Assembly: GCA_021793275.1 (NCBI GenBank)
Contig: JAJYTC010000037.1
Span: forward strand, 1 to 32,037
DNA from: Deltaproteobacteria bacterium
GTDB taxonomy: Bacteria > Desulfobacterota > Syntrophobacteria > Syntrophobacterales > Syntrophobacteraceae
DNA: 32,037 nt
Direction: 5' to 3'
The translations under genes and the position numbers were made by a program. Of this stretch, positions 4,827-29,137 are shown one piece after another (the first letter of the stretch is position 1; each line of letters begins with the position of its first letter). A model generated the notes under the pieces. It did no database searches and had not been told where the DNA came from. It saw only the letters and a list, made by a program, of their open reading frames with translations.

Positions 4827-4854
4827 TTGTAAAATTGCGCCATTATGCTAGAAT
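4827..4854 (+). promoter_or_regulatory. Putative sigma70-type promoter of the lipid operon
   Basis: TTGTAA (4827-4832) and TAGAAT (4849-4854) are separated by 16 bases. They lie about 70 bases ahead of the chosen start of the first gene, in an otherwise gene-free stretch. The match is moderate and untested. Confidence 0.35.
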
Positions 4855-4922
4855 ATTTTCCCTGCGGCCGGTGTGGGGCCTGCCGGGAAAGCCTGAATGC
4901 ATTTTATTGGAAAGTCTTTTTA

Positions 4923-5717
4923 GTGGCGGGAAACATCTTTTTTACGGATAAAGTGGCTCTCGTAACGGGAAGTTCGAGGGGAATCGGCCGGGCTGTCGCC
5001 CTGGCTTTTGCGGAAGCCGGCGCCGATGTGGTCGTAAACCATTCCAAGGCCGAAGGCAGTTCAAAAAGAAAAGCGGAAGACGTTTGTCGTGAGATCGCCG
5101 ACCTGGGCCGCAAAGCCCTGGCTGTTCCGGCGGATATAGCATCGAAATCTTCGGTTGGCGAAATGATCGAGGCGGTGCTGGGCTGGCGCGGTCGGCTCGA
5201 TTTTCTGGTGCTGAATGCGGCGAGGGCGCCCTTCAAGCCTATAGAAAAGCTGCTGGAAAGAGAAATCAGGCAGCTTGTCGAAATCAACTACATGGGCAAC
5301 ATCTTCTGTATTCAGAAGGCCCTGCCCCTACTCGAGGCAGCCGGGGGAAGGATCGTTTTTATATCGAGCCTGGGGAGCCGGTTCTATAATCCGGCCTATC
5401 CGCTCGGAAGCATGAAAGCCGCCATGGAGGCGGTGGTGCGGGACTGCGCGGAAAGTCTGGCCGAAAAGGGCGTTTACGCCAATGGAGTCTGCGGAGGTGT
5501 GGTAAAAACAGATTCCTTCAAGACCCTCAGACAACACATGGAGGAGCTTGAGAATATCCCCGACGAGCTGTGCGTAAGCCCGGAAGCCCTGGCCGACGTG
5601 GTTGTATTTCTTTGCAGCCCCGCCGCTCGCGGTATCCGCGGCCAGACCGTCGTGGTTGACAATGGCTTGAGCAATAGACTATATCGCCCGGCGTGGGTGA
5701 AGAAGTCGAAATCATAG
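4923..5717 (+). CDS. SDR reductase, FabG/FabL-like (acyl-ACP reductase)
   Basis: This is a 264-residue short-chain dehydrogenase, the first gene of the operon, likely an NAD(P)H-dependent reductase acting on ACP-bound acyl chains. The nucleotide-binding motif TGSSRGIG is at residues 15-22, NAA at the usual mid position (LVLNAARAP), and RGQTVVVDNG near the C-terminus. The catalytic segment is unusual: SSLGSRFYNPAY...SMK gives Ser148 and Lys165, but the canonical Tyr (K minus 4) is Leu161; the nearest tyrosines are Y159 and Y155. The segment resembles FabL enoyl-ACP reductases (SSLGS..., Tyr-x6-Lys) with one residue less. GTG at 4923 is chosen because GGAAAG lies eight bases upstream and the Rossmann fold starts right after it; an ATG at 4845 would add 26 unlikely residues overlapping the putative promoter. 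Ketoreductase or enoyl reductase cannot be decided from sequence. Confidence 0.8.
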   Translation: MAGNIFFTDKVALVTGSSRGIGRAVALAFAEAGADVVVNHSKAEGSSKRKAEDVCREIADLGRKALAVPADIASKSSVGEMIEAVLGWRGRLDFLVLNAARAPFKPIEKLLEREIRQLVEINYMGNIFCIQKALPLLEAAGGRIVFISSLGSRFYNPAYPLGSMKAAMEAVVRDCAESLAEKGVYANGVCGGVVKTDSFKTLRQHMEELENIPDELCVSPEALADVVVFLCSPAARGIRGQTVVVDNGLSNRLYRPAWVKKSKS

Positions 5718-5734: not shown

Positions 5735-6298
5735 ATGAAACAAAATCTCATTCCCGAACAGAGGGTAATGGAAGAAGTGAAAAAAGCAATCGCGGAAGGG
5801 ATCGATATCGACCCGGCGCGGATTAAACCGGAGAGTTCCCTCATGAAAGATCTGGGCGCCGAGTCGCTCGATTTTCTGGATATAAATTACCGTTTGGAGC
5901 AGACTTTCGGGATCAAAATGGCCAGGCGCTCGGTCATCGATCACATTGAGGAGTTGTTCGGCGAAGAGAGCGCGATTGACTCGGAGGGCAAGCTCACCGG
6001 AAAAGCCGCCGAAGTGCTGGCTATCCGATATGACGGTTCCGGCGATCAAATTCGTCCCGGCATGGATATGGATGAATTGCCCGTGATGGTCACAGTCACC
6101 TCGATAGCTGAAGGGGTGGCTAATCTTCTGGACACGCTGCCTGGAAATTGCGTCAACTGCAGAGCACAGAACTGGAAGCTGGAGGAAGAAACCCGGATAA
6201 CGTGCGGATCGTGTGGCGAACCGGCTGCGTTCACCAGCGGGGACGACCTCATAGAAGACTGGCTGAAGCAGACCCAGGAAAACAAGAAAATTTTTTGA
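5735..6298 (+). CDS. Acyl carrier protein with C-terminal zinc-ribbon-like domain
   Basis: The protein has 187 residues, about twice the size of a normal ACP. Residues 1-80 form the carrier domain: the phosphopantetheine site is Ser44 in LGAESLDFLD, with ESL replacing the usual DSL, followed by the helix that ends FGIKMARR. After a linker (about 85-115) comes a short segment with a predicted helix (VTSIAEGVANLLDTL). Then come two Cys pairs, C139-x2-C142 and C157-x2-C160, in the spacing of a rubredoxin-like zinc ribbon. It presumably carries the growing chain for the ketosynthases downstream, and the ribbon may dock a partner enzyme; the latter is inference. It lies 17 bases after the SDR gene and 29 before the first ketosynthase. 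A dedicated AcpS is encoded further down the operon. Confidence 0.85.
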   Translation: MKQNLIPEQRVMEEVKKAIAEGIDIDPARIKPESSLMKDLGAESLDFLDINYRLEQTFGIKMARRSVIDHIEELFGEESAIDSEGKLTGKAAEVLAIRYDGSGDQIRPGMDMDELPVMVTVTSIAEGVANLLDTLPGNCVNCRAQNWKLEEETRITCGSCGEPAAFTSGDDLIEDWLKQTQENKKIF

Positions 6299-6327
6299 TC
6301 GGGCGGCTCGCGTCCTTGCAGGAAAAA

Positions 6328-7626
6328 TTGGATTTGAACGCGCATACAAAAAGCAGGCGGGTGGTCGTTACCGGTTACGGAATGATTACGCCGATCGGTA
6401 AAGACAGCGGGGAAACGTTCGGAAACGCTCGAAACAGCGTCTCGGGCATTGACTTCATCAGCTCTTTTGAAACCGAGGGGCTTCCCTGCCGTATAGGCGG
6501 ACAGGTGAGCGATTCCTGGCTGGGCGGTTTTCAGGCCAAAAGGCTTCAGGGTATCGAAAAATGCAGCTCGCGCGGTCTAAAGCTCATGATAGCCGCCACT
6601 TCCGAAGCCGCCGAAATGGCCCGGTTGGATTCGATTGAAAACCGGGCAATGATCGGTGTAAGCCTTGGCTATCACGGGGAAAACCCTTCGGTCGAAGACC
6701 TGGTCCGCCTTTACCGCTACGCCGGTGGGGAGTCTTGGGACATTAACGGGCTTACCAGGGACGGCGTCTATTCCTTCTTTAATTTTTTCCGCAGAAAACC
6801 CGATGTGGCTTGTTCGATCCTGTCGATTTTGTTCCATTGCAGGGGCGCCAATTTTACCGTTGTTTCCGCCTGTGCGGCCGGGACGCAGGCTATCGGAGAG
6901 GCGCTCGGGGCTATCAGGGCCGGGAAAGCCGACGTTATGATCGCCGGCGGGTGCGAATCCAACCTCAACTTTATGGGTTTTGTCGGCTTTGTTCTTATCC
7001 GGGCCCTTGTCGAGAAATACTCTTCGCCCGACAAGGCTTCGAGGCCGTTTGACCGGAAAAGAAACGGCTTTGTTATGTCCGAAGGGGCGGGAACGCTGGT
7101 TCTCGAGTCCCTCGAACACGCCGTGGCGCGCAACGCCCCCATTTTTGCCGAAGTGCTCGGCTATGGTTCATCGGCTGATGCCTTCAGGATAACCGACATG
7201 CATCCCAAAGGCGACGGAGCGGTTTTCGCCATGCAGCAGGCGATCGCCGATGCGGGCCTTTCCGCCTCCGATATCGAGTACATCAACGCTCATGGGACCT
7301 CGACCATACAAAACGACCAGATAGAAACGCTGGCCATAAAGAGGGTCTTGGGTGAGAGGGCAAAACAGGTCCCGGTCAGTTCCAACAAGTCGATGACGGG
7401 CCATACTATTGCTGCGGGGGGCGCGATAGAAGCCGGACTCACCATAATGGGCATGAACGGCTCCATTGTTCTTCCCACGATCAATTATGAGTTTGCCGAT
7501 CCGAAATGCGACCTGGACTATGTTCCCAATCAGGCCCGCCAGCTCGAACACGGGATCTCGCTTTCCAATTCTTTCGGCTTCGGCGGCCAGAACGCATGCC
7601 TGTGCCTGGGTAAATTCCGCAAATGA
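6328..7626 (+). CDS. Beta-ketoacyl-ACP synthase, FabF-like (KS-A)
   Basis: This is a decarboxylating Claisen condensing enzyme of the FabF type, about 432 residues. The full active site is present: Cys182 in VSACAAGTQ, His322 in HGTSTIQND, and Lys354 and His359 in NKSMTGH; the C-terminus ends in the usual NSFGFGGQNA. The start is uncertain: TTG at 6328 or 6334 follows AGGAAAA by 4 or 10 bases and gives MDLNAHTKSRRVVVTGYG; no ATG fits. The longer open frame upstream overlaps the ACP gene and is rejected. Its stop overlaps the start of the next gene (ATGA), which fits a KS/chain-length-factor pair translated together. An insertion of about 40 residues rich in aromatics (around residues 120-170) precedes the nucleophile. 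Confidence 0.88.
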   Translation: MDLNAHTKSRRVVVTGYGMITPIGKDSGETFGNARNSVSGIDFISSFETEGLPCRIGGQVSDSWLGGFQAKRLQGIEKCSSRGLKLMIAATSEAAEMARLDSIENRAMIGVSLGYHGENPSVEDLVRLYRYAGGESWDINGLTRDGVYSFFNFFRRKPDVACSILSILFHCRGANFTVVSACAAGTQAIGEALGAIRAGKADVMIAGGCESNLNFMGFVGFVLIRALVEKYSSPDKASRPFDRKRNGFVMSEGAGTLVLESLEHAVARNAPIFAEVLGYGSSADAFRITDMHPKGDGAVFAMQQAIADAGLSASDIEYINAHGTSTIQNDQIETLAIKRVLGERAKQVPVSSNKSMTGHTIAAGGAIEAGLTIMGMNGSIVLPTINYEFADPKCDLDYVPNQARQLEHGISLSNSFGFGGQNACLCLGKFRK

Positions 7627-8867
7627 AAGCGGGTCTCAAACCTCCTTCCTATCCCCCGGCCGACCGGGTGGCGATTACCGGCCTCGGAGCGGTCTGCTCG
7701 CTTGGCAATTCGGTCCCGGAGATTATCCAGGGTTTTCTGTCCGGAAACTCCGGCGCGGGTGAAATTACCGGTTTCGATGCCGGCGGGTTCGGCTGCCCGG
7801 CCGCGCAGGTGAAAAATCTCCCTGCCTTTAAAACTGATGTGCCTCCTCAGCTAGCCATCACCATGGGAAAGCATCTTTCCCTTCTTATGGCCTCAGTCGA
7901 CGAGGCGCTGCGCGGGGCTTCCATCGACCCGGGCACGTTCAGTCCGGGGGATAGGGGCTTTTTTGCCGGCATGGGTATGGTCGATTATCACGTAGAGGAC
8001 CTTCTCCCGGCTGTTCTCAAATCGCTTAACCGGGACGGTGATATCGACTACGACAAATTTTTTCTTCAAGGCTACCGGGAAATCTACCCCTTGTGGCCCC
8101 TCGGAATGCTGAACAATGTCGCTTTTTGCCAGGCTTCCATCCACTTCGGTCTTCACGGCGAAAACGGCGTCTTTTGCCCCCACGGCGATGCAGGCGTGAG
8201 GGCCGTTTTTGAAGCCGCCTGCGTATTGAAAGAAGGAAGGGCAAAAATGGCCCTGGCCGGCGGGGTGAGTGAGGAGATATCGCCGCTCGGGCTTGCCAGG
8301 GCACGGATTAAAGGACTTATTGGTCCGCCCTCGGAAACTTCCGCGCCGGCGCCCTTTCTTGGAGAAGCCGGGGCCATGCTCGTCCTGGAGCCGTTTTCGA
8401 CGGCAGTGGAAAGAGGGGCTTCCATACTCGGGCAAATCGCGGGCTTCGGTTTTACGTGTGAGAAAAGTGAAGACGGCCGCTTTGCTTCGAGACAGGCGAT
8501 ATCCTCGGCGATCCGGGCGGCGCTTTCCGATGCCGGGCTCACTCCCGGGGGGATCGACCTCGTGATGCTCGGAAGTTTCGATAAAAATGAGTTGGAAGCC
8601 GTCCACGAGGTCTTCGATGCGGATGTCTCGCCGCCGGTTATTGTGGCCACAGCGGGTGCTGTGGGCGAGACCTATGCGGCGGGGCCGGTTCTGAACGCCG
8701 CCATGGCGCTCGCTATCCCGGGGGATGCCGAATTGCCGCCAAATTTCTTGCTGCCGGCCCGTAGCACTGGTTCTGCAGGCTTTAAAATCGGCCGGGTCCT
8801 CGTAAATGGAATAAGCTGCGAGGGCGGGTGCGGCTCGATGATTCTCGAAGGAGCAAACGCCGGATGA
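7623..8867 (+). CDS. Degenerate ketosynthase, chain-length-factor-like
   Basis: The 414-residue protein has the thiolase fold of ketosynthases (VAITGLGAVCSLG at the N-terminus, AKMALAGGVSEE after the nucleophile region, GEAGAMLVLEP later) but has lost the catalytic set. The nucleophile position is Gly188 in CPHGDAGV (a Cys lies three residues earlier), the HGT histidine is replaced in LGSFDKNE, the Lys is gone, and the GH pair reads GET. This is the pattern of the chain-length factor (KS-beta) subunits of type II polyketide and aryl-polyene systems, which dimerise with an active KS. Gene order supports pairing with the KS just upstream, with which it shares an ATGA overlap; its own stop overlaps the next start in the same way. 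Role in setting chain length is inferred from family knowledge. Confidence 0.82.
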   Translation: MKAGLKPPSYPPADRVAITGLGAVCSLGNSVPEIIQGFLSGNSGAGEITGFDAGGFGCPAAQVKNLPAFKTDVPPQLAITMGKHLSLLMASVDEALRGASIDPGTFSPGDRGFFAGMGMVDYHVEDLLPAVLKSLNRDGDIDYDKFFLQGYREIYPLWPLGMLNNVAFCQASIHFGLHGENGVFCPHGDAGVRAVFEAACVLKEGRAKMALAGGVSEEISPLGLARARIKGLIGPPSETSAPAPFLGEAGAMLVLEPFSTAVERGASILGQIAGFGFTCEKSEDGRFASRQAISSAIRAALSDAGLTPGGIDLVMLGSFDKNELEAVHEVFDADVSPPVIVATAGAVGETYAAGPVLNAAMALAIPGDAELPPNFLLPARSTGSAGFKIGRVLVNGISCEGGCGSMILEGANAG

Positions 8868-9385
8868 GACTTTTGTTCTACGACCGGATAACCGACCTTG
8901 TGCCGGGTGAGTCGATAACCGGGATAAAAACCTTTTGTCTTTCGGAAGAATATCTGCGCAAACATTTCAGCAAAGAACCGCTTATTCCCGGCGTGATATT
9001 TATCGAGGCCATGGCTCAGCTGCTGGGCTGGCTGGTTATTCGCACCCATGATTTCAGGCTCTCGGCCGTGATGTCCCTGGTCGAGGACGTTAAGATGACC
9101 CCGGATCTCAGGCCCGGCTTTTCGGCCCAGATCTCGGGGCGCCTTGTCTCCACCTCGCGGAGCGATTCGCTTGGTTCGGCCCGCATGACCGTTGACGGCG
9201 CCGAAATAGCTTCAATCGGCAGAATCATTTACGTGCATTCCGGCGCTGCCGACCCGGATGGCCTGCGGGCGTTGTTTCGTTATTACGGCGGTTCGCAGTG
9301 GGCCGATGAGGCAGGTTTTGCAGGCTCTGCCCGCGGCGAGTTTGCAAGCGGGCATAAGGGCAGCGGCGGCAGGCCGCCGAAATAG
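8864..9385 (+). CDS. FabZ/FabA-like hotdog dehydratase (DH-1)
   Basis: The 173-residue hotdog-fold protein would remove water from 3-hydroxyacyl-ACP. The catalytic pair is His34 in KHFSKEPLIPG and Glu48 in IEAMAQLLGW, the FabZ arrangement. The start at 8864 is chosen because AAGGAG lies 10 bases upstream and the ATG overlaps the previous stop (ATGA); the earlier ATG at 8828 has no ribosome site. It is about 25 residues longer than typical FabZ, owing to a Gly/Ala-rich, probably disordered tail after residue 140 (AGFAGSARGEFASGHKG...). It shares its N-terminal design (DRIT-D-x-x-PG-x-x-ITG-x-K) with the second dehydratase of the operon, so the two are paralogues. Confidence 0.85.
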   Translation: MRLLFYDRITDLVPGESITGIKTFCLSEEYLRKHFSKEPLIPGVIFIEAMAQLLGWLVIRTHDFRLSAVMSLVEDVKMTPDLRPGFSAQISGRLVSTSRSDSLGSARMTVDGAEIASIGRIIYVHSGAADPDGLRALFRYYGGSQWADEAGFAGSARGEFASGHKGSGGRPPK

Positions 9386-9399
9386 GCTGAAGAACCGAC

Positions 9400-10674
9400 A
9401 TGGCAGACCGGAAGGTGGTAATAACGGGTCTTGGACTTGCCACGGCGCTGGGGCTCGAAGTCGAGCAAAACTGGCGCAAAGCGCTTAAGGGCGTCTCGGG
9501 GGTATCCCGAATTCGGCTCGAGTGCGCGGGAAAATCCGCGGTGCAGGCTGCCGCGCAGGTTTCGGACGACGATTGGCGCACTATCTGCGATGATTTTCCC
9601 TCCGAGGCGGAATCCGAAGGCGAGCGACGAACCCTTTTCGCTTTGTGGGCGGGCAAAAAAGCGCTTAGTGACGCGGGGCTGGGACGGGTCGCGGAAGACC
9701 GTTCGAGGTTTGGCGCTGCCATGGGCGCAGGTCTTGGCGTCAATCGGCTGGAAGATATATCGAGATGGCTTACAGCGGGCAAAAAGTTCGATCCCGTCCG
9801 CTTTGCCGGTGAACTCGACCTTGTCGAGCGCGAATCGATAATACGCAACAATTCCAGTGCGCCTGCGACACTTATGGCCGCCAAATTCGGTCTGAAAGGC
9901 CCCAATATTACCATCACCTCCGCCTGCGCCTCCGCGACTCTTGCCCTTGGCGCTGCATACAGGGCCGTCAAACGAGGGGAAGCGGACCTTGTTCTTGCCG
10001 GGGGCGCCGATTCGATGATAAACCCGGTGGGGCTTGTCTTTTTTGTGTTGCTCGGCTCCGTTGCGGTATCCAAGATGGAACCGGAGCATCTTTGCCGTCC
10101 TTTCGACCGCAAGAGGTCGGGGCTTGTCATGGGGGAAGGCGCAGGTATGGCCGTGCTCGAAGAGGAGTCCCACGCGCTGGCTCGCGGAGCGCGCATTTAT
10201 GCCGAAGTGGCAGGGTTCGCATCGACCATGGACGCATGGCGGCTGACAGCTCCTCATCCTGAAGGCAACGGCGCGGAAGCGTGCATGTCGCTCGCCCTGG
10301 CCGATTCAAAAATTCCCCCGGAGGGAATCGACTATATAAACGCTCACGGCACATCGACCAAGCTAAACGATTTGGCCGAGACCATCGCCATAAAAAGGGT
10401 TTTCGGCAACTGCGCCCCTCCCCCGGCCATAAGCTCGAGCAAATCGATCATAGGTCACCTGCTGGCTGGGTCGGGAGGACCCGAATTTGCCTTCACGGTG
10501 CTTTCGGTAGCCCAGAACCGAATTCATCCGACGATCAATCTGTCCAGTCCCGACCCGAAATGCGATCTCGATTACGTTCCAAACGTCGCGCGTGAAAGGG
10601 TGGTTCGCGCAGCTCTGTCGAATTCATTTGGTTTCGGCGGTCAGAATTCGACGATTGTGGTGAGGAAGTATTGA
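9400..10674 (+). CDS. Beta-ketoacyl-ACP synthase, FabF-like (KS-B)
   Basis: This is an active-type condensing enzyme of 424 residues. Catalytic residues: Cys176 in TSACASAT, His316 in HGTSTKLND, Lys348 and His353 in SKSIIGH; it ends NSFGFGGQNSTIVV. It is close in sequence to KS-A, both sharing the unusual late motif DPKCDLDYVPN, which points to duplication within the cluster. ATG at 9400 lies 14 bases after the dehydratase stop. Its own stop (TGA 10672-10674) lies inside the first copy of a short repeat, so the last bases of the gene border that element. Having several active ketosynthases suggests division of labour (initiation against elongation, or different chain lengths), which is inference. 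Confidence 0.88.
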   Translation: MADRKVVITGLGLATALGLEVEQNWRKALKGVSGVSRIRLECAGKSAVQAAAQVSDDDWRTICDDFPSEAESEGERRTLFALWAGKKALSDAGLGRVAEDRSRFGAAMGAGLGVNRLEDISRWLTAGKKFDPVRFAGELDLVERESIIRNNSSAPATLMAAKFGLKGPNITITSACASATLALGAAYRAVKRGEADLVLAGGADSMINPVGLVFFVLLGSVAVSKMEPEHLCRPFDRKRSGLVMGEGAGMAVLEEESHALARGARIYAEVAGFASTMDAWRLTAPHPEGNGAEACMSLALADSKIPPEGIDYINAHGTSTKLNDLAETIAIKRVFGNCAPPPAISSSKSIIGHLLAGSGGPEFAFTVLSVAQNRIHPTINLSSPDPKCDLDYVPNVARERVVRAALSNSFGFGGQNSTIVVRKY

Positions 10675-10843: not shown

Positions 10844-11269
10844 ATGATGCACATCCTGCAGGGCATTGACATAGTGCAGGTTTCGAAAATGGAGAGGATC
10901 ATCCAGGCGCATCCCGGACTTGCCTCGGAAATTTTTACCGAAGGAGAGCGGAAGTATTGTTTTTCGATGCCCAGTCCTCACGTTCATCTGGCCGGCAGAT
11001 TTGCGGCCAAGGAGGCCTGTCTCAAGGCGCTCGGCATCGGCCTTTCGGGTGAAGGGATAGACGGTGCGCTGCGCGATATTGAAGTGGTGGCGGGAACTTC
11101 CGGTAAACCTGCTTTGCGTGTCACAGGCAGGGTGGGAAAAACAGGCAGCCGGAAAAAAGTTTACCAGTACACCGTATCCATTTCTCATTCCGGGGATTTC
11201 GCTATTGCCTCCGTAATCCTTGCCGCCCGGCAAACATGCGAAGATTTAAGGGAGGGACCTGTCACGTGA
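10844..11269 (+). CDS. acpS: Holo-ACP synthase (4'-phosphopantetheinyl transferase), AcpS type
   Basis: A 141-residue AcpS-family enzyme moves phosphopantetheine from CoA to the Ser of an ACP, here most likely Ser44 of the operon's own carrier. The two metal/CoA motifs are present: GIDIVQVSKME with Asp9, and HLAGRFAAKEACLKALG with Glu57; VSISHSGDFAIASVIL closes the fold as usual. ATG at 10844 (or 10847) follows a GGAGG-containing stretch. It is separated from KS-B by the repeat pair and overlaps the next gene by four bases (GTGA). A second AcpS beside a non-standard ACP suggests the housekeeping enzyme does not serve it well, which is inference. Confidence 0.87.
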   Translation: MMHILQGIDIVQVSKMERIIQAHPGLASEIFTEGERKYCFSMPSPHVHLAGRFAAKEACLKALGIGLSGEGIDGALRDIEVVAGTSGKPALRVTGRVGKTGSRKKVYQYTVSISHSGDFAIASVILAARQTCEDLREGPVT

Positions 11270-11712
11270 GATATCTTTTGGTTGACCGGATAACGGACGT
11301 TGAGCCGGGGAGCAAAATAACCGGGGTGAAAAACGTCGCCATGAGCGAAGATTTTCTGGAATTCCATTTTCCGAAGAATCCTATCATGCCGGGCATAATG
11401 CTGCTCGAAGCCCTCGTTCAACTCACCGGCTGGCTGGAGGCGGTTTCTTCGGATTTTAAGAAATGGTTTTTGGTCTCCACGGTTTTGAAGTGCAGCTTCT
11501 ATGGTTTTGTCATTCCCGGCGACCGGGTGGAACTGAGCGTGAGTTGCGGCCCCGCCCCGTCCAAGGACCTCGTGGTCTATGGGGGAATTGCCAAGGTCAA
11601 CGGGAAACGCAGGCTCAAAGCCGAATTTCAGGGAAGCCTTGTGGACCTGGAAACCATCGAGGAAGTCGAAGAACAGAAGAAGTTTTTTGAAATACTAAAG
11701 CGCGGGGTTTAG
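11266..11712 (+). CDS. FabZ/FabA-like hotdog dehydratase (DH-2)
   Basis: The 148-residue hotdog protein has His34 in FHFPKNPIMPG and Glu48 in LLEALVQLTGW, a closer match to canonical FabZ (HFPGxPVMPG) than DH-1. GTG at 11266 is chosen: GGGAGGG stands about nine bases upstream, and the codon overlaps the acpS stop as GTGA. An in-frame ATG at 11236 would lie inside acpS without a good ribosome site and would add ten residues before the conserved DRITD. Two dehydratases in one operon could act on different chain lengths, or one may isomerise; neither can be read from the sequence. KS-C follows after eight bases. Confidence 0.86.
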   Translation: MRYLLVDRITDVEPGSKITGVKNVAMSEDFLEFHFPKNPIMPGIMLLEALVQLTGWLEAVSSDFKKWFLVSTVLKCSFYGFVIPGDRVELSVSCGPAPSKDLVVYGGIAKVNGKRRLKAEFQGSLVDLETIEEVEEQKKFFEILKRGV

Positions 11713-11720: not shown

Positions 11721-13019
11721 ATGTCCTCATCGAGGCGGGTTGTCGTTACGGGAATGGGTTTGGTCACCCCTTTGGGAAAGGGTGTGGAGGCCAACTGGAA
11801 GTCCGTTCTTGCCGGACAAACGGGCATAGAGCGCCATGAGCGCCCGGGATGCCCCGAACACTTTCAGTTCTTCGGACGCGTCGAGGGAGTCGAACGCCCC
11901 GAGGGTATTCCGCCCAAGCTGGCCGGCCAGGTCAGGTTTCTCAATCGTGGCGCGGTTCTCGGGTTCGAAGCGGCAATGGAGGCGCTCAGGAACGCGGGTA
12001 TCGATCTGGCCTCGGTCCCCCGGGAACGCAGGTCGCTTTTTCTCGCATCGGGCGACCTTACGAAGATAGGATGCGAATTTATGCACCCCGCTATAAAGGA
12101 TGCGATCAAAAATGCCGGAAAAGGCGCCGATCGCCTCGCTCTCAACAAGTCCCTGATGGATAAGGTAAACCCCTTTTTCCTGCTCGAATCCATCAGCAAT
12201 AACCTGTTCAGCTTTCTATCCGCCGCCTTGGAATTCATGGGGCCGAACACCAGTCTGGCCAGCCTCTCGCCCTGCGGCGCCCACACGCTCGAACTCGCCT
12301 GCCGAAGGATCGCGGCCGGTGAGGCCGATATTGCGCTTGCAGTAGGTTGTGGCTGCTGGATAACCGAAATTCCCATGTTTGAGATGGATGGACTTGGAAT
12401 TCTATCGAGGTGCAAGCATGGTCCCGCCTCCTTCAGGCCTCTTGACAGGGCGAGGGATGGGTTCATACCCGCAGAGGGTGGCGCTGCCGTCCTGGTCGAG
12501 GACAGCGAACGGGCAATAGCGCGAGGCGCCAGGATTCTGGCTGAAATAAAGGGTAGCGGAAACTGTATCGAACCCCCGAGGGGAAAGGGCTTGAGCGTTC
12601 CCGCTGAGGTCTCGAAAAACTCCATTCGCACCGCCCTCGCGGAAGGCGCCGTCGATGTGCGGGACCTCGCTTTCATATGTCCTCATGGCAGCGGCACGCG
12701 CAAGGGGGACCGATCCGAGCTGAACTCGATCCGTGCAATCCTGGAGGCCGAGGGTGGCAACGTTCCGGTTTGCGCCCTCAAGGCCTACACCGGTCATATG
12801 GGCGCGGCTAGCGATATCTGCGAGGTCATCCTTGGCATCGAGGCAATTAATGAAGGGGTTGTTCCGGGAACCCTCAACTTTTCGATGACCGAACCCGCCT
12901 TTGAGGGCATGGATATTTCAGCCTCGGCCAGGAAGGCCGCAGGCAGAAGCTTCGTGTCGGTAAGCTATGGGATAATGGGGCAGTGTTCGAGTGTTCTGGT
13001 CGAGGGCCGGGCTAATTGA
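11721..13019 (+). CDS. Divergent beta-ketoacyl synthase (KS-C)
   Basis: The 432-residue condensing enzyme keeps all catalytic residues in altered surroundings: Cys185 in LSPCGAHTLEL (instead of SACAxGT), His322 in CPHGSGTRKGD, Lys354 and His359 in LKAYTGHMG. It starts VVVTGMGLVTPLGKGVEAN and ends VSYGIMGQCSSVLVEG, where other KS have NSFGFGGQN. It therefore belongs to a separate branch from KS-A and KS-B, like the extra ketosynthase found in aryl-polyene-type clusters. AGGA seven bases before ATG 11721 supports the start. Its stop overlaps the acyltransferase start, so the two are translationally coupled and may act in sequence (last condensation, then transfer). That order is inference. Confidence 0.85.
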   Translation: MSSSRRVVVTGMGLVTPLGKGVEANWKSVLAGQTGIERHERPGCPEHFQFFGRVEGVERPEGIPPKLAGQVRFLNRGAVLGFEAAMEALRNAGIDLASVPRERRSLFLASGDLTKIGCEFMHPAIKDAIKNAGKGADRLALNKSLMDKVNPFFLLESISNNLFSFLSAALEFMGPNTSLASLSPCGAHTLELACRRIAAGEADIALAVGCGCWITEIPMFEMDGLGILSRCKHGPASFRPLDRARDGFIPAEGGAAVLVEDSERAIARGARILAEIKGSGNCIEPPRGKGLSVPAEVSKNSIRTALAEGAVDVRDLAFICPHGSGTRKGDRSELNSIRAILEAEGGNVPVCALKAYTGHMGAASDICEVILGIEAINEGVVPGTLNFSMTEPAFEGMDISASARKAAGRSFVSVSYGIMGQCSSVLVEGRAN

Positions 13020-13996
13020 ACATGGGGAAGAAGAAGGGGAAAAGTAAGGCTTTACAGATCGTAGAATGCGTGGCGTTTTATGCCGCCGTTGCCGTGGCGA
13101 GACCGCTGCCGGTTAGGGTGTTGAGGGCTCTCTGCGGCTTTCTCGGTCAAATATTGTACGTCGCCGCGCCCCGGAGACGGAAAATAGCCCTGGAAAATAT
13201 CAGGACAGCCTTCGGCGGCAAGATGAGTGAAAAGCAGATGGAGCGGATTGCCCGCCAGAGCTGCAAGGCTTTCCTGCTGACCGCGGCTGAAATGATAAAA
13301 TCGCCTTTCCGCGTGAAGGACGGAAATGTCCTGGCAAAGAGCCGCTATAAAATCGACCATGTCCAGCATCTTTTCCTGAAAGCAAAGAGGATTCATGACC
13401 AGTCCGGAGGGTGCATCTTCGTTACTCCGCACCTTGGCAACTGGGAACTGCTGCCCCATATAAGCGCCCAAATCGGCATCCCGCTTGCCGTGGTCATTCG
13501 TCCGCTGGATAATCCTTATCTCGAGCGGGCTATCCTGTCCAGCCGTATCGGTAGCGGCCACCTCATGGTTCCCAAGGCAAACGCCATGTTTTACCTTGAT
13601 CGCGTGCTGCGGAAAGGCACGTCCGTCGCCATGCTTCCGGACCAGAGCCACAACAAGGGACTAAGAGTTGAATTCTTTGGAAAAACCGCCACGGTCACTC
13701 CCATTCCGGCCCTGCTCGCCCTCAGGCACCGGCGCCCTGTTGTCGTTGTGGCGGCCTGTCGTACCGATGATCCCTACCTATTTGAAGGATTTGTTTCAGA
13801 CCCTATTTGGCCTGATCCGGACAAAACCGACGATGCCCCGGAAATCGCGCGGATCACGCGCGAAATAAACGCCAGGATGGAGGAAATAATCACGCGGTTT
13901 CCCGAACAGTATTTGTGGATGCACGACAGGTGGAAAAAATCCTGGAGGAAACCGGTCTTCGACAGTCAGCGCCCGCGTCCCTCCGGATCGCAGTGA
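13016..13996 (+). CDS. LpxL/HtrB-type lysophospholipid acyltransferase
   Basis: The 326-residue inner-membrane acyltransferase of the lipid A late-acyltransferase family carries the HX4(D/E) motif as His139 to Glu144 in TPHLGNWE, then VIRPLDNPY, LPDQSHNKGLRVEFFGK (the DQ motif) and PEQYLWMHDRWK at the C-terminus. A hydrophobic N-terminal segment (about 16-50) would anchor it. It would hand the finished acyl chain to a lipid acceptor. TTG at 13016 overlaps the KS-C stop and has GAGGG nine bases upstream; ATG at 13022 is the alternative and costs two residues. It is the last gene of the operon. Homologous acyltransferases accompany aryl-polyene clusters, which supports a membrane-anchored product. 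Confidence 0.87.
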   Translation: MNMGKKKGKSKALQIVECVAFYAAVAVARPLPVRVLRALCGFLGQILYVAAPRRRKIALENIRTAFGGKMSEKQMERIARQSCKAFLLTAAEMIKSPFRVKDGNVLAKSRYKIDHVQHLFLKAKRIHDQSGGCIFVTPHLGNWELLPHISAQIGIPLAVVIRPLDNPYLERAILSSRIGSGHLMVPKANAMFYLDRVLRKGTSVAMLPDQSHNKGLRVEFFGKTATVTPIPALLALRHRRPVVVVAACRTDDPYLFEGFVSDPIWPDPDKTDDAPEIARITREINARMEEIITRFPEQYLWMHDRWKKSWRKPVFDSQRPRPSGSQ

Positions 13997-14791: not shown

Positions 14792-15412
14792 TCAGAGTCC
14801 GCTGTTGGCCTCTTGTTGAATGGCCATCCTCTTGATTAAATCGTTGAAAGTATGCGTCCTCAGGAATGTACTGAAAGAACTTTTATACGTTTCAACAATG
14901 CCCACCCCGTCAATCAGCACATCTCTTATCATCCATTGGCCACCGCTTTGTTGCATAATATAATCGACAGGGATGTGCTCGTTGGTTCTCATTATAACGG
15001 TTTTTACCTTCGTGAAGCTTCCATCGGGGGTTTCACCCGGATAGCGGACTTTCTCGCGTTTCAGAAAATCGACCACCTGTCTGGTGTAAGAAGAGATGAA
15101 AATAGCAGTGAGAAGTTTTGTATAACGCGCGCGCTGGCCGGGCAAAAGCCTTCCCCAATACTCCTGCAGCGACTCCTTGGCCATTTCCGCCGACAGGAAG
15201 TTTTTAGAAATCAGCTTTCTGATCAGTGCGCCGCGTTGCTTCCGGTGCGCAGCTCCCTGGAGTTGAGGGTTTGTCTGGATATCCATAGCCTTGTTAATTA
15301 CGGTACGCACCTTGGCCATAGCTCCTGAATCCGCTCTGGCCGGAACTGCTGCCCAAAGAATAAGCAAAAAAGATGCGAAAAGCACAAACTTCCATTGTCT
15401 AACTGCGAACAT
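14792..15412 (-). CDS. MlaC/Ttg2D/HpnM-like periplasmic lipid carrier
   Basis: The 206-residue exported protein has a signal peptide (MFAVRQWK, hydrophobic stretch LFASFLLILWAAV, cut after ARA near residue 27). The mature part has MlaC-family features: RKLISKNF in the first third, EYWGRLLPGQRARYTKLLTAIFISSY, and the late WMIRDVLIDGVGIVETYKSSF segment typical of the family. Such proteins ferry phospholipids or hopanoids through the periplasm. It overlaps the end of the RND gene by 14 bases, so the two are coupled, the same pairing as HpnM and HpnN in hopanoid gene clusters. No Mla ABC-transporter genes are present here. Cargo unknown; the converging lipid operon suggests a candidate. Confidence 0.85.
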   Translation of the reverse strand: MFAVRQWKFVLFASFLLILWAAVPARADSGAMAKVRTVINKAMDIQTNPQLQGAAHRKQRGALIRKLISKNFLSAEMAKESLQEYWGRLLPGQRARYTKLLTAIFISSYTRQVVDFLKREKVRYPGETPDGSFTKVKTVIMRTNEHIPVDYIMQQSGGQWMIRDVLIDGVGIVETYKSSFSTFLRTHTFNDLIKRMAIQQEANSGL

Positions 15413-18176
15413 CTTTTACCTCCTCGTCTGAAACCGGGGCTGGATTCTTCATGAAAGACAGAATTGAAGGCAGGATGAGCAACGCGGAGAGAAGAACGAG
15501 AATGCTTCCCGACCACGCAACAAATCCCAGGCTGAAAATCCCCGGGTCTTTAGATATCATCAATGCGCCAAAACCTATGGTGGTGGTCAGAGCGGCGAGA
15601 ATGACTCCCTTGCCCGTGCTCAAGGGAAGCTGCCCGCGGCCTTCCCTGCCCTCTCGCCACCTGTAGAGTATAATTACCCCATATTCGACGCCTGCGCCTA
15701 CAACCAGCGGCATGAATATGCTGTTTGCAAGGTTGAAATTGAAGCCGACAACTCCCATTAATCCAACCGTCCAGATCGAGCCGACAATGAGCGGAACAAG
15801 GGAGACAAGCATAAGCCGAGAACTTTTAAATGTTAACAGGAGAAGCAGCGAGACGGCGATCAGGGCGTAAACCGAGGCTTCAGTCGACGCCTTTTTATAG
15901 GCTGAAGAAAATACGTAAAGGTCGATCGGATCTCCTAACACGCCAGGGTTCACCGACTTAATGCTTTTGACGAAGCGTGTCAGTGCTCCTTCCTCCCAGA
16001 TCGATCCCTTGGGATAAACCCTGACGACATACTGCCCGTGCTGGTAAAACTGGTCTCTCCATTGGGCCGGGATATTCCCGATAGTCATCGGGGAGGCCGA
16101 AGAGCCCTCACTTATGATGGACCACTCGTCCACGACGTCTTTTCTGAAACGTTCACGATAGTGCGACAGCCTTTCGGATTCAACCGGCGTATTCTTGCGC
16201 AAAGATAGGAGAATCCTGTCTATAAATGTCCTTACGGCGGTCATCTGTTGGACTTGAGGCCTTGAAGCTCCCCATTTGGAAGCCTGTCCCGGCTGCATCT
16301 TGAAGTTGATTCTCTCTAGAACGTCAATCAATGAGGACTTGTAAGCGGCATCCTCGGCCGGCGACGGATCCGGATCGCTGCCGCTCAAACTGGCAACCGA
16401 CGATTTCATCCTTGGAACTATTTGGGCAATCGACCTCAAAATCGGGACCTTCACTCCCTGGTGGCCGGGAAGAAGGGAGAAGACGTTGTCAACTTCGGAA
16501 ACGGTCGGTAATGCCTTGAATCTTGCAGTCTCTGCTCTGACTTCTTGAGCCGAGTTCGTGATGACGGCCGCTGAAATAATCGAGCGCTTGGAATGTTCCA
16601 CCATGACTTTTTCCCAGTGGACCGACTGGGAGTGTTTGGACTGGAGGCGTATAGGATTCAGATCGAAATGCACATGGGAAGCACTGAGGGAACCCGCGAC
16701 GCTAAGGACCAGGGCCGCGGCGAGGATGGACTGTATACCCCCGGGACTCAGCCGGAGAAGATATCGCTTTTTCCTTTCACCTGCGCATTGCCCGGGGACC
16801 GAGGCGCCGGCGGCCAGATAGCAGCTTATGGCCGGCAAAACCGTGAAATCGGCAAGTATGATAAAAAGGATGCCCATCCCGGTTATCATCCCCAGCTCCA
16901 TCAGTCCCCGGAATCCCGTAAGAATAAAAGGGAGGAAAGAAATTGCAGTGCTCACACCAGCCAGCATTATCCCCGGTCCGGACTTGTCCATGACATTTTT
17001 TACAATTACCGAACGGCTTGCGTCCGAAATACTTCTTTCTTCTTCGAATCTGGCAAACCAGTGAATACCGTAATCGACGCCGAGGCCGCAGAGCATCGGC
17101 GCAAAGACAATCGAAAGTATAGTGAGATGACCGATAAAAATCGCCGTCCACCCGAATGTCCAGCACAGACCGACGATCAGGGACACGGCGATTATAAGCG
17201 GATGGCGAAAACCTCGCAGAAACAGGGCCATTACAAATATGACGCCCAGCAACGATAACCACGTGGCCGTGGTCATATCCGACATCGCGCTGCTCATTTG
17301 ATCGTCATTGAGCGCTTCCTGTCCGGTGACACCCGCTTTTACGTCTCGGAAGCCCGATGCCTGCAGTTCCCGTATGTCCGCGCGCAACCGCTCAAGAGAA
17401 CCCATGGTCTTGCTGACCTGTCCCTGAACTTTGGCGGGCATAACTTCGGCCACCAGCAATTTCTTCTTGCCCTGCCAGAGATAGCCTGCTTTTTTGATGT
17501 CCCACGAGCCGGTTTTGAAAAATGAAGACCACGGAGACACATACTGGGGATTTCCTGCAAGGTATTGGGAAAAACCCTGGAGGACTTTTATGATGAACTC
17601 AAGGTCCATCGGCTTGCTTTTTTGCGTGGATGATTTTTTTTCATCCAGAAAACCGGTGAAAAGCTGGCCGACCATCTTTGAGGCCATTTTTTGGTTTACA
17701 AGCTCCAAAAAATTGAGCAGGTCCGGGTTTTGAGCCAACTTGTGAACCAGTGTGGAGTTGTCCCGGATGGTGTTTCTGACATCCACCAGATCGTGTTTAT
17801 TGAGATAATAGAGGAGCCATTTTTTGAACTCATCCGGGTTTACCCTGTAAAATACGCCTTGAAAATGCTTGGGGTCGGCATGAATCCTGCCAACTATGGC
17901 TTTGAGGAACGCGATGGCCCTGTCCTGAGAAGGGGCCTCAATTACGAGCGTGAATGTGGTTTTACCGTGAAACTCGAATTGGTCCAGCTTTGCTGACTTG
18001 GCTATGAGAGGGAGCTTGGGAGAGATGAGTTGGAGCTGCTCGGTTTGCACTCCAAGCCGGGTGGCCGCCAGCCAGATTGACACGGCTACGCCCAGTAATG
18101 CTACTATCAGAACTAAACGTGGCCTGGGAAGGACCCAGGCCACGAGTTTATTCGTAAAACCTGTTAAAAGCTTCAT
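15399..18176 (-). CDS. RND-superfamily lipid exporter, HpnN/MMPL type
   Basis: This is a 925-residue inner-membrane transporter. Topology: one segment at about 20-40, a large periplasmic loop, five or six segments around 300-460, a second loop (about 490-760) and a final group at about 770-910. Both halves keep the helix with the proton-relay-type acidic residue: GLGVDYGIHWFARF and GAGVEYGVIILYRW. Length and layout fit HpnN, which moves hopanoids to the outer membrane, and MMPL-like exporters in aryl-polyene clusters. AGGATAAGG precedes the start. It sits between a TolC-family gene (70 bases upstream) and the mlaC-like gene (overlapping). No hopanoid synthesis gene such as a squalene-hopene cyclase is in the window, so hopanoid cargo is not supported locally. 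Confidence 0.87.
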   Translation of the reverse strand: MKLLTGFTNKLVAWVLPRPRLVLIVALLGVAVSIWLAATRLGVQTEQLQLISPKLPLIAKSAKLDQFEFHGKTTFTLVIEAPSQDRAIAFLKAIVGRIHADPKHFQGVFYRVNPDEFKKWLLYYLNKHDLVDVRNTIRDNSTLVHKLAQNPDLLNFLELVNQKMASKMVGQLFTGFLDEKKSSTQKSKPMDLEFIIKVLQGFSQYLAGNPQYVSPWSSFFKTGSWDIKKAGYLWQGKKKLLVAEVMPAKVQGQVSKTMGSLERLRADIRELQASGFRDVKAGVTGQEALNDDQMSSAMSDMTTATWLSLLGVIFVMALFLRGFRHPLIIAVSLIVGLCWTFGWTAIFIGHLTILSIVFAPMLCGLGVDYGIHWFARFEEERSISDASRSVIVKNVMDKSGPGIMLAGVSTAISFLPFILTGFRGLMELGMITGMGILFIILADFTVLPAISCYLAAGASVPGQCAGERKKRYLLRLSPGGIQSILAAALVLSVAGSLSASHVHFDLNPIRLQSKHSQSVHWEKVMVEHSKRSIISAAVITNSAQEVRAETARFKALPTVSEVDNVFSLLPGHQGVKVPILRSIAQIVPRMKSSVASLSGSDPDPSPAEDAAYKSSLIDVLERINFKMQPGQASKWGASRPQVQQMTAVRTFIDRILLSLRKNTPVESERLSHYRERFRKDVVDEWSIISEGSSASPMTIGNIPAQWRDQFYQHGQYVVRVYPKGSIWEEGALTRFVKSIKSVNPGVLGDPIDLYVFSSAYKKASTEASVYALIAVSLLLLLTFKSSRLMLVSLVPLIVGSIWTVGLMGVVGFNFNLANSIFMPLVVGAGVEYGVIILYRWREGREGRGQLPLSTGKGVILAALTTTIGFGALMISKDPGIFSLGFVAWSGSILVLLSALLILPSILSFMKNPAPVSDEEVKDVRS

Positions 18177-18246: not shown

Positions 18247-19638
18247 TCAAGGTTTGTAGGTCATCTCGCCGATTGCATACTCCAGATTGGCCAATGCGAT
18301 GTTATAATTGTATAAACATGCAAGGTAGTTCCCCTGATTTTTTCCATATCGATCTATGGCCTCGAACATCTCCCGTGCCGTACCGATTCCCAGATCAAAA
18401 TTGGAGAAGGCCGCAACGATCCACCTGCGTGCGCCGACCACAGACTGCTCATAGTCATTGGAAGCTTTTTCCTGTTCAATGACGTCCTCGTAATCTTTCA
18501 TCACTTCTACAGGAATATTTCTTCGGGCGTAATCTTCGGCATTGAGCATCTTCTGGTATTCCGCCCTTGCCTTGTCGAGCTTTCCCGACTGGATACCGAA
18601 GTCCAGGTGCCATTTCGCCCCGGCATAGAAAAAGGCATAGGAATGATTGAACTGGTCATAGATGTATGTGTTATCAAATTGTTGGCGACCGGGATCGCCG
18701 GCAACCGATGCCATAACGGCGGCGAACAAGGTGGGATACAGGTCGGCATGGGCTGCCTCGGCCAGTTTTTCCTTGGCGGCCACACCTTCCCTGACCTCCA
18801 AAAGTTCGGGTCTTTCTGAAAGGGCGCGCTGTACATATACTCGTAACGGGGCAAGTTTGGCCGAGGTTCGGGGCAGTTCGGTCGCTTTGATCCTGAACTC
18901 CTCGTCTTTGGGCAATCCTATCGCAGCCTTCAGGGCGCCATAGGCGACCTTGGAGCCGGCCTCCGCCTTGGCGGCAAAAGCTTTCACTTCCCCCCGGTAA
19001 GCTTCCACCTGGTAGAGATCACTTGTTTGAACATTTGGCGAGTTCAGTTGGAGCAATCTTTTGATGCGCCTTTCCGCACCGTCAATGTAACTGGTGGCGT
19101 CTCCGGCAGCATCCTTACCCTGTTCGGCTATAAGATAGGCGAAGTACAGTTGCTTTGTTTCCAGAATGATCTTATTGCGTTGCGCTTCCCTGGCGTCTTT
19201 GCTTGCCGCGATTCCAAATCGGGCGGCCTGTTTGCGGTCGGATATCTTGCCGAAAGTGTAAATGGGCTGTGTCAGGAAGAGATCCAGATCGCCGAATATC
19301 CCGATGCTCCATGTTCCGGCGTCATGAGAGACGATTTGTCCGGTTTTAAGGTTAACGGTGGGAAATCTGGCGTTCTCCATGGGGCCGGTTGTTGCGTATA
19401 CGTTGAGCTGCGGCAACCCGCCGCCTTTTGCCTCTTTGTATTCGCTCTTTGCCGCCAGGATATCCTCTTCGGCCATTTTTAATCTCGGGCTGTTCTCGAG
19501 GGCCATCCGGATAAGTTGGTCCAGCGTGAAGACCCTGGCCTTTTCGGCAGCCATGGAGGCTTGGCAGTTCAGCATCGTGATAAGAAGACAAAGAATCACC
19601 GATAAGAAACAGCCCCTGGCAATATCTTTGGGAATCAT
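18247..19638 (-). CDS. TolC-family outer membrane channel protein
   Basis: The 463-residue protein has a signal peptide (MIPKDIARG, core CFLSVILCLLITML, cut after SMA) and the double OEP architecture: FTLDQLIRMALENSPRLKMAEEDILAAKSEY begins the first repeat, and a second comparable helical half follows residue 250 (AYFLIAEQ- and LPKDEE-type spacers, then VAAKEKLAEAAHADLYPTL). ATG at 19638 is chosen because AAGG stands six bases upstream; a GTG at 19644 is less well placed. It is the first gene of the leftward exporter operon. TolC proteins usually need an RND or HlyD partner; here an HpnN/MMPL-type RND follows but no membrane-fusion protein, which is unusual. The N-terminal region is short of periplasmic adaptor signatures. 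Confidence 0.83.
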   Translation of the reverse strand: MIPKDIARGCFLSVILCLLITMLNCQASMAAEKARVFTLDQLIRMALENSPRLKMAEEDILAAKSEYKEAKGGGLPQLNVYATTGPMENARFPTVNLKTGQIVSHDAGTWSIGIFGDLDLFLTQPIYTFGKISDRKQAARFGIAASKDAREAQRNKIILETKQLYFAYLIAEQGKDAAGDATSYIDGAERRIKRLLQLNSPNVQTSDLYQVEAYRGEVKAFAAKAEAGSKVAYGALKAAIGLPKDEEFRIKATELPRTSAKLAPLRVYVQRALSERPELLEVREGVAAKEKLAEAAHADLYPTLFAAVMASVAGDPGRQQFDNTYIYDQFNHSYAFFYAGAKWHLDFGIQSGKLDKARAEYQKMLNAEDYARRNIPVEVMKDYEDVIEQEKASNDYEQSVVGARRWIVAAFSNFDLGIGTAREMFEAIDRYGKNQGNYLACLYNYNIALANLEYAIGEMTYKP

Positions 19639-19847
19639 AAACACCTTCGTAGCTGAAGTTCATCGTACAGAACAGGGATTGTGTGCTGATCTTTATACTG
19701 TAATTTTTCCCCTATTCATAGAATTTAGTGCTCGGCGCAACGTCTTTTCCCTCTCAGCGAATAAATTGACTTTTGCTTTCATCTCTGGTAACCGATTATT
19801 TTCATACTGAAAAATGAACGCCATTCCGTCTCAAGCTGAAATGAATC
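19639..19847. promoter_or_regulatory. Divergent promoter region between tolC-like and hpnK-like genes
   Basis: This 209-base stretch must hold promoters for both directions. Rightward, TTGACT near 19767 is a fair -35, but the downstream -10 is poor. Leftward, TATAAA (read on the minus strand near 19697-19702) is a fair -10 without a clear -35. I cannot pin either down further. The stretch is AT-richer than its flanks. Confidence 0.35.
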
Positions 19848-20732
19848 ATGCGCCGAAGGTTGATTATTAATGCCGACGATCTCGGATTGACCAGGGGAAT
19901 CAATCTGGCCGTATCCGAATGCGCGGATGGTGGTATGCTCCGCAGCGCTACTCTTATGGCCAACGGCCCCGCATTCGATGATGCGGTAAAGATGGTCAGG
20001 GGGCGTGAGGGGTTCGGCACGGGGATTCATTTCGTACTCACTGGTTTGAAACCGGTCGCGCCGGCGCAAAATCTCGACGGACTCGTCGGTCCGGAGGGGT
20101 TATTACCCTCCGGCCCTCTCGGGTTGCTTAGGAAAATCGAGGCGGACAAATCGGTGCGGGACGCTCTCAGAAAGGAGCTTTTTGCCCAGGCTGAAAAGGT
20201 TTTCGATTCGGGGATCACACCGACTCATTTCGACAGCCATAAGCATGTTCATATCATTCCTGCGGTCCTGAACATCATGGTCGAAATAGCGGGTCGCTTT
20301 TCGGTCAATTGGGTACGCGAGCCTTTCGAACCAAATGGTTCGTGGAGATTTTTGCACGATCTGGAAAAGGGTTTCAGGGGCAAATTTTTGAAACAATTGG
20401 CCGGAACGCGGGCAAGCATTCCGGCTCGACCGGTCTTCAGATCGCGAGTACGCAGGGCTGGAATCCAAACTCCGGCCGGAGTATATGGAATTTCCTTCAC
20501 GGGGTTGATGAATGAGGCCATGCTCAGGCGTCTGTGCGGGATGCTCAAACCGGGTTTAAGCGAGTTGATGACCCATCCGGGCATCGTGGACGCTGAGCTT
20601 CTTAGCCTCAAGGGCCGGCTTGTCGAATCAAGGGCTAAGGAAAAAGAGCTTCTCGTTTCCGCTGGAATAAAAGGGGCTTTTGAAGAAAACGACATTATGT
20701 TGAGCCATTTCGGAGAGGTGGAAAATGAGTGA
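19848..20732 (+). CDS. ChbG/HpnK-like (YdjC family) carbohydrate deacetylase
   Basis: The 294-residue metal-dependent deacetylase of the YdjC/ChbG fold has the metal motifs NADDLG near residue 7, THFDSHKHVH in the first half and ELMTHPG near residue 240. Members remove an N-acetyl group from amino sugars; HpnK does so on N-acetylglucosaminyl-bacteriohopanetetrol. The start codon ATG at 19848 has only a weak ribosome site. Its stop overlaps the next gene (8 bases), a membrane glycosyltransferase, so the pair probably adds and then deacetylates a sugar on a lipid carrier or lipid. Without hpnI, hpnJ or a hopanoid cyclase nearby the specific HpnK role is not proven; an aminosugar on another lipid is equally possible. 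Confidence 0.85.
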   Translation: MRRRLIINADDLGLTRGINLAVSECADGGMLRSATLMANGPAFDDAVKMVRGREGFGTGIHFVLTGLKPVAPAQNLDGLVGPEGLLPSGPLGLLRKIEADKSVRDALRKELFAQAEKVFDSGITPTHFDSHKHVHIIPAVLNIMVEIAGRFSVNWVREPFEPNGSWRFLHDLEKGFRGKFLKQLAGTRASIPARPVFRSRVRRAGIQTPAGVYGISFTGLMNEAMLRRLCGMLKPGLSELMTHPGIVDAELLSLKGRLVESRAKEKELLVSAGIKGAFEENDIMLSHFGEVENE

Positions 20733-26234: not shown

Positions 26235-26251
26235 GCCTGATCCCTCGGAAA

Positions 26252-27583: not shown

Positions 27584-28326
27584 CGTTTCTCCTGGCGCCG
27601 GGCATCCAGCAGCTTGACCATTGCCTGGAAATTGAGGTCCGAAAGAGACCCGATCACCTTGTCCGCCCCGGAAAGCTCAGTTGCTGCAAACGAGTTTGTA
27701 ACGGCGACGACGGCAAGGCCTGCCGATTTGGCCGAACGGATGCCCGCAGGGGTGTCTTCTATCGCGATGCAGTTGAGCGGATCGAGGGGCTTCGAACCGC
27801 AAGCCGGCCTCAATCGCTCTATTGCGAGCAGATAAGTCTCCGGGTCGGGTTTGCTTTTCTTAACATCGTTGGCAGCTACAATGACGCGAAAAACTGCGTC
27901 CAGGCCCAGTGATGATACGAAAGCATCCACTTCATGCCGGAGCGCTCCCGAGGCAACAGCCATCGGAACCCCTCTGTCCATGAGCTCCTCCACCAGTTCA
28001 ACCACGCCCGGAAAACTCGGCGCGCCCTGTCTAATGAGTTCGCCAAGCGCCGCCGACTTGGCTTCAATGAGCCTGTCGAGCGAATCGGCCGAAAGTTCCC
28101 TGCCCGCCTCCTTGAAGGCGTGGATGAAAGCGTCCCGGTCGTCGAAACCAACAAAATGTTCGAGGTAGCGGGCATAGTCGTGTCCCAGACCCAGCGGCGC
28201 AAGCACCTTCTGGAAGGCCTGGTAATGCAGCGGCTCGGTATCTACCAGTACACCGTCGCAGTCAAATATTACCGCCTGAAGACCCTGTTCGGGACAGGAT
28301 GTAACACCGGTCAAAAAAATCTCCAT
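27580..28326 (-). CDS. HAD-superfamily phosphatase, beta-phosphoglucomutase-like
   Basis: The 248-residue protein has all four HAD motifs: AVIFDCDGVLVDTE (nucleophile and acid Asp), MAVASGA (motif II Ser), a Lys in VKKSKPDP (motif III), and AIEDTPAGIRSAKSAG (motif IV). A helical cap domain lies between motifs I and II. It resembles the PGMB/GPP type, acting on sugar phosphates or related metabolites. The start at 28326 has no strong ribosome site; a TTG at about 28308 is an alternative. It lies between tetR and tolC on the same strand, with 97 bases to tetR. Why a sugar-phosphate phosphatase travels with an efflux pump is unclear. Confidence 0.85.
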   Translation of the reverse strand: MEIFLTGVTSCPEQGLQAVIFDCDGVLVDTEPLHYQAFQKVLAPLGLGHDYARYLEHFVGFDDRDAFIHAFKEAGRELSADSLDRLIEAKSAALGELIRQGAPSFPGVVELVEELMDRGVPMAVASGALRHEVDAFVSSLGLDAVFRVIVAANDVKKSKPDPETYLLAIERLRPACGSKPLDPLNCIAIEDTPAGIRSAKSAGLAVVAVTNSFAATELSGADKVIGSLSDLNFQAMVKLLDARRQEKR

Positions 28327-29095: not shown

Positions 29096-29137
29096 CTCAG
29101 AAGTCCTCAAAAAAATGGTCGAGGATTGAGAACAAAA

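Follow-up and report, generated by a model that had tools for sequence, protein, structure and literature searches.

A split acyl carrier protein with a C-terminal Cys4 zinc-ribbon-like domain, kept between the same reductase and ketosynthase in four phyla

We report an acyl carrier protein (ACP) whose domain architecture, within a known protein family, is conserved and apparently undescribed: the carrier fold is predicted to be split by an internal insertion and to be followed by a Cys4 beta hairpin resembling a zinc ribbon, then by a helix. Its gene belongs to a cluster of fatty-acid-synthase-like genes in the window, i.e. the whole stretch of 32,037 nucleotides that was analysed. A search of open-access papers turned up no description of a zinc-ribbon ACP, most subscription papers being beyond its reach. 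We propose, with moderate confidence, that a structural zinc ribbon docks the carrier to the neighbouring ketosynthase KS1 and/or to a FabL-like reductase, in a type II synthase for a dedicated envelope acyl chain.

Results

Anatomy of the carrier

Translation of the open reading frame gives the 187 residues of the original prediction, with Ser44 in LGAES(44)LDFLD and cysteines at 139, 142, 157 and 160. The PP-binding profile PF00550 matches residues 14–69 only (E 2.9e-7, above cut-off) and is matched in all 27 members of a first alignment of homologues, which share 49–86% identity with the window protein; the best PDB match by profile is RPA2022 (2kw2/3lmo, E 2e-11). The 187-residue carrier scores under the cut-off of each NCBIfam ACP model, and no NCBIfam or Pfam model covers the full layout of ACP, insertion and ribbon, which bears out the earlier view that this is not a standard ACP.

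An AlphaFold2 (AF2) model of the full chain, built from the 27-member alignment, has a pLDDT of 91.6 and a pTM of 0.86. It predicts helices at 8–23, 44–58, 67–75, 89–98, 121–132 and 169–184, and two strands, 147–150 and 154–157, between the two Cys knuckles. Over residues 6–133 the model adopts a four-helix ACP fold: the VIA alignment to the ACP 1x3o gives Z 10.9 and an rmsd of 1.5 for 77 aligned residues, and many solved ACPs align likewise from ~6 to ~133 with ~77 residues matched. As this match spans the middle of the chain, the ~50 residues lying there are best read as an insertion, and helix 121–132 as the last helix of the ACP. The predicted parts are as follows:

5735–6298, + strand: split acyl carrier protein with C-terminal Cys4 zinc-ribbon-like domain, 187 aa, ATG start
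5756–5920, + strand: first part of the predicted ACP fold, residues 8–62, helices 8–23 and 44–58 (AF2; PF00550 at 14–69)
5864–5866, + strand: Ser44 codon, phosphopantetheine site, in an ESL motif invariant in 27/27
5921–6073, + strand: predicted ~50-residue insertion, residues 63–113, between ACP helix II and the last ACP helix (AF2, structural alignment; also in ribbon-less relatives)
6074–6136, + strand: predicted end of the ACP fold, residues 114–134, last helix 121–132 (AF2, structural alignment)
6137–6238, + strand: predicted zinc-ribbon-like hairpin, residues 135–168, Cys codons starting at 6149, 6158, 6203 and 6212
6239–6286, + strand: predicted C-terminal helix, residues 169–184 (AF2)

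The original prediction had described about 100 added residues ending in two CxxC pairs. The Cys pairs are indeed there, but they do not close a single tail: about half of the addition (~63–113) would be internal, and the appended domain would be residues ~135–187 only, i.e. the Cys4 beta hairpin and the helix. This anatomy is independently supported by relatives devoid of the ribbon, which carry the same insertion and stop just after the last ACP helix. The AF2 model and these relatives together rule out one 100-residue tail.

The Cys4 ribbon

The four Cys, Ser44 and Trp147 are invariant in the 27 aligned homologues. A wider survey, covering about 300–400 genomes each in the phylum of the window, the Nitrospirota, the Gammaproteobacteria and the Acidobacteriota, yielded 47 distinct full-length members, and all of them keep the four Cys as C-x1-2-C...C-x2-C, the first pair being mostly Cx2C and in a minority Cx1C. 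The conservation of these residues in homologues, on which the original prediction was to be judged, is thus complete in both sets. Both TGC and TGT are in use as Cys codons; with the conservation in 47/47, this mixture rules out a chance or frameshifted tail. The mean identity to the window protein is 74% for the ACP core, and 52–58% for the ribbon, the insertion and the last ACP helix.

The tail had been called zinc-ribbon-like, and by profile and predicted fold it does resemble a zinc ribbon, through matches that are weak. Searched member by member, the ribbon domain gives sub-threshold matches to RUBY_RBDX in 15 of 27 members (best E 0.0005, or 0.00046 before rounding) and to Zn_ribbon_RRN7 in 20 of 27 (best E 0.0016). 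Pfam and PDB sequence searches with the ribbon likewise return only sub-threshold, mixed zinc-ribbon matches; no DUF35 match is listed among the profile searches of the ribbon, an absence that excludes nothing. Modelled alone, the ribbon finds as its best Foldseek/VIA match the ribosomal zinc ribbon eL43, weakly (E 0.26; Z 4.2, rmsd 3.4, 51 aligned residues), and TFIIB is also among the structural matches. In most eL43 alignments, for which only the first and last aligned residues are given, residues 5–55 of the model lie on 37–92 of the chain; the start offset of 32 brings the model Cys 7, 10, 25 and 28 near residues 39, 42, 57 and 60 of eL43, which we take to be its zinc ligands. The two Cys knuckles (Cx1-2C...CxxC) are present in all 47 members and, in the model of the window protein, sit on a predicted beta hairpin, as is expected of a zinc ribbon. 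Taking profile, fold and conservation together, a Cys4 metal site is likely; from this predicted site we infer zinc as the bound metal. The AF2 confidence of the tail, ~93–96 within the full chain, drops to a pLDDT of 73.6 when the tail is modelled alone, which fits a packing of the ribbon on the carrier.

Homologues in four phyla

Full-length relatives were found in the Syntrophobacteraceae, the group of the window itself, with the nearest record at 86% identity, and in Nitrospirota, Acidobacteriota and Gammaproteobacteria; the 47 members of the survey come from Thermodesulfobacteriota and the latter three. Apart from those confined to the common ACP core, the matches are bimodal: one set is full length, with E 1e-79 or lower, and the other breaks off near residue 130, with E values of about 1e-12 to 1e-25. 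Phages gave no match to the ribbon ACP and plasmids matched its ACP region only, on which ground a phage or plasmid origin was rejected; the Photobacterium plasmid match is a ribbon-less split ACP with unannotated neighbours.

Gene neighbourhood

The genes around the carrier in the window are:

4845–5717, + strand: FabL-like SDR reductase with a family-wide Y-x5-K; the real start codon probably lies downstream of 4845
6271–7626, + strand: ketosynthase KS1, FabF type; Cys-His-His intact; start codon uncertain
7623–8867, + strand: degenerate KS of chain-length-factor (CLF) type; active Cys replaced and both His absent in the window copy
8828–9385, + strand: FabZ-type dehydratase 1 (DH1); start uncertain
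9400–10674, + strand: ketosynthase KS2, FabF type; Cys-His-His intact
10844–11269, + strand: AcpS-type phosphopantetheinyl transferase; the genome encodes two PF01648 proteins, this one included
11236–11712, + strand: FabZ-type dehydratase 2 (DH2)
11721–13019, + strand: KS3; active-site Cys replaced by Ser, both His kept
13016–13996, + strand: LpxL/HtrB-type acyltransferase
14792–15412, − strand: MlaC-like protein, beside the cluster in close relatives only
15399–18176, − strand: MMPL/RND transporter, beside the cluster in close relatives only
18247–19644, − strand: outer-membrane efflux protein (OEP), beside the cluster in close relatives only

By NCBIfam the SDR resembles FabL, below cut-off; it might possibly carry out an enoyl reduction. 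Its Y-x5-K is found in 21 of the 21 ribbon clusters aligned, a spacing which is neither that of FabG (Yx3K) nor that of FabL/FabI (Yx6K). In KS3, Ser stands for the active Cys with both His kept, in the window as in the relatives aligned; it may have a decarboxylase or chain-length role. Further along the window, overlapping reading frames at 19848–21729 encode a YdjC-like protein, then a family 2 glycosyltransferase, and 23392–29161 holds an MFS pump, an HlyD-type adaptor and an outer-membrane efflux protein (judged by eye), followed by a HAD hydrolase and a CecR-type TetR regulator; this is probably an ordinary drug-efflux locus.

Wherever the locus is long enough and unsplit, the order SDR – ACP – KS1 – degenerate KS – DH1 – KS2 – (SDR2) – (AcpS) – DH2 – KS3 – LpxL-type acyltransferase is the same in all four phyla, the window being without SDR2. 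The most constant part is the beginning: each of the 47 ribbon ACPs is directly flanked by the same SDR, upstream (57–86% identity), and by the same KS1, downstream (55–89%), on the same strand and mostly 0–200 bases apart. Among the partial matches of this survey, L007 is a ribbon ACP cut by the end of its contig. In four Nitrospirota genomes the SDR, the ACP and KS1 are kept together while the rest of the pathway stands at another place or contig (L155–L158); the detached half, to the extent that its genes were read, comprises some or all of CLF, DH1, KS2, SDR2, AcpS, DH2, KS3 and the acyltransferase. At the trio itself unrelated genes directly follow KS1 in L010, L013 and L021, and L011 ends soon after KS1. 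Since the trio is constant and the rest of the pathway separable from it, KS1 and the SDR are the likeliest partners of the ribbon; co-regulation alone could however give the same pattern.

The AcpS gene behaves otherwise. It had been proposed that a private AcpS points to a carrier in need of its own activating enzyme, a view that the comparison of clusters does not support. No AcpS gene was found in the ribbon clusters L012, L016, L017, L019, L020 and L098. For three of them, L012, L016 and L020, the genome encodes just one PF01648 protein, located on a different contig (these are draft genomes, in which one could be missed). The ribbon-less clusters L087, L089, L091 and L093 do carry AcpS. 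AcpS therefore does not track the ribbon; in split clusters it travels with the other half, away from the ribbon ACP. The genome of the window has two PF01648 proteins and five PP-binding matches.

Split carriers without the ribbon

The ribbon-less split ACPs (L051, L061–L068, L131–L139, L142–L146) have the same insertion and the same last ACP helix, end right after it and measure about 130–150 aa. They form a broad family present in Desulfobacterota, Gammaproteobacteria, Acidobacteriota and Nitrospirota, and none of the NCBIfam ACP models reaches its cut-off for the four that were tested. Where the neighbourhood was read, they belong to multi-ketosynthase clusters of FabF/FabZ/FabG-like genes, some with AcpS. 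They differ from the ribbon ACPs by the lack of the Cys4 domain, by another type of SDR (YxxxK) and by the lack of a constant SDR–ACP–KS1 trio: none of them lies between the same SDR and KS1, the best SDR identity being 39%.

On a tree built from the ACP only (29 ribbon and 10 ribbon-less rows, tail columns excluded), the ribbon group is one side of a single branch with a support of 97/90, so that the presence of the ribbon switches once over the tree. Long branches lead to two of the ribbon-less rows, and the detail among the ribbon-less rows is unsure. The tree does not give the direction of the change, gain or loss; the simplest account is that a split ACP gained the ribbon once.

Discussion

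The ribbon ACP shares with the type II ACPs (PF00550; AcpP, AcpXL, RPA2022) the place of the phosphopantetheine Ser and the ACP helices recovered in the model. It departs from them by its size, 187 residues compared with ~80–100, owing to ~50 residues inserted inside the fold and to the zinc-ribbon-like tail. Aryl polyene (Ape) and AcpXL–LpxXL clusters combine a dedicated ACP, a KS and a degenerate KS, FabZ/FabG-type enzymes and an LpxL/HtrB-type acyltransferase. The cluster of the window is alike in that gene set, with an MMPL transporter nearby in close relatives; unlike them it has a FabL-like SDR, and their carriers are ordinary-sized. From the gene set we infer, by analogy with the aryl polyene or AcpXL-type systems, that the product could be a dedicated acyl chain on an envelope lipid; no aryl starter-activating ligase was seen among the window genes scanned.

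The carrier would thus be the dedicated ACP of a type II (FabF/FabZ/FabG-like) synthase, and the acyl chain would grow on the phosphopantetheine arm at Ser44. The Cys4 ribbon and its helix may pack on the carrier as a rigid structural element and, with the insertion, would most likely serve as the surface by which the carrier docks to KS1 and/or the FabL-like reductase. On a carrier docked in this way the chain could stay separate from housekeeping fatty-acid synthesis up to the point at which the LpxL-type acyltransferase might place it on an envelope lipid. The suggestion, made from the start, that the tail docks a partner enzyme thus holds in part, as the role that the above evidence makes most plausible.

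A precedent exists in the DUF35/PhlB proteins, which, with their Cys4 zinc ribbon and OB fold, join an active to an inactive subunit, both of the thiolase superfamily, within a polyketide enzyme (PMC6392133, PMC2954200); the PhlB-type ribbon protein bridges the subunits of PpATase (PMC6392133). In both cases a Cys4 zinc ribbon, here a predicted one, is associated with active and inactive condensing enzymes of the thiolase superfamily, but in DUF35/PhlB an OB fold follows the ribbon, whereas here it is joined to a phosphopantetheine carrier, at the C-terminus, and ends with helix 169–184. The analogy is functional only. That the ribbon does a similar job of bridging, fused this time to the carrier itself, is the best-supported proposal.

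Against this reading stand the weakness of the structural matches of the isolated ribbon, the chance that co-regulation rather than contact accounts for the tight trio, and the fact that the ribbon-less split ACPs manage with related ketosynthases, which indicates that the ribbon is dispensable for carrier function as such. It is possible, if somewhat doubtful, that the ribbon is a purely local stabiliser of a large carrier burdened with an insertion, its metal site folding the C-terminus with no partner involved. The predicted packing of the tail on the ACP, with its loss of confidence in isolation, and the lower conservation of ribbon, insertion and last helix relative to the core are what one would expect of such a stabiliser; on the other hand ACPs of several phyla bear the same insertion and do without a ribbon, and the ribbon is only found with one particular SDR and KS1. 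We consider it improbable that the ribbon docks a partner other than these two, i.e. the degenerate KS, KS3 or the LpxL-type acyltransferase. Their genes do recur with the ribbon ACP family, and DUF35-type ribbons, as said, join active to inactive thiolase-fold subunits; but in split clusters these three genes stand away from the ribbon ACP while the SDR and KS1 stay beside it, and a CLF-like gene also accompanies the ribbon-less ACP of Photobacterium.

Metal or redox sensing, by zinc or by a rubredoxin-like iron, whose oxidation or loss would free the tail and switch the carrier off, has to our mind little likelihood. Anaerobes are a known feature of the groups to which many of the carriers belong, and the rubredoxin-like RUBY_RBDX is among the better of the weak matches; however the cluster has neither a conserved regulator nor a conserved redox partner, an invariant Cys4 with short knuckles is the common structural zinc pattern, and the family is also present in Gammaproteobacteria and Acidobacteriota.

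As a rule type II carriers are free to diffuse, and nothing but their surface serves for recognition. A bolder form of the docking proposal, which we hold to be unlikely, would make of these proteins a distinct class of carriers, each locked permanently by an integral zinc (or iron) ribbon into a complex with its own reductase and ketosynthase, close to a subunit of an assembly line and possibly gated by metal or redox state. If docking to KS1 and/or the reductase is true, a carrier with its own docking module would be another way to insulate a pathway running beside fatty-acid synthesis, in use across four phyla, and those who engineer type II synthases would find in the ribbon a docking tag already at hand.

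For a direct test of the docking idea, nature offers a comparison in the split ACPs that lack the ribbon. One of them is encoded on the Photobacterium plasmid pDA100 (L051:14983–15441), beside an unannotated cluster (L051:15461–23684) with several KS genes and SDR genes; this cluster also holds a 978-aa reading frame whose N-terminal half, judged by eye, is aminotransferase-like.
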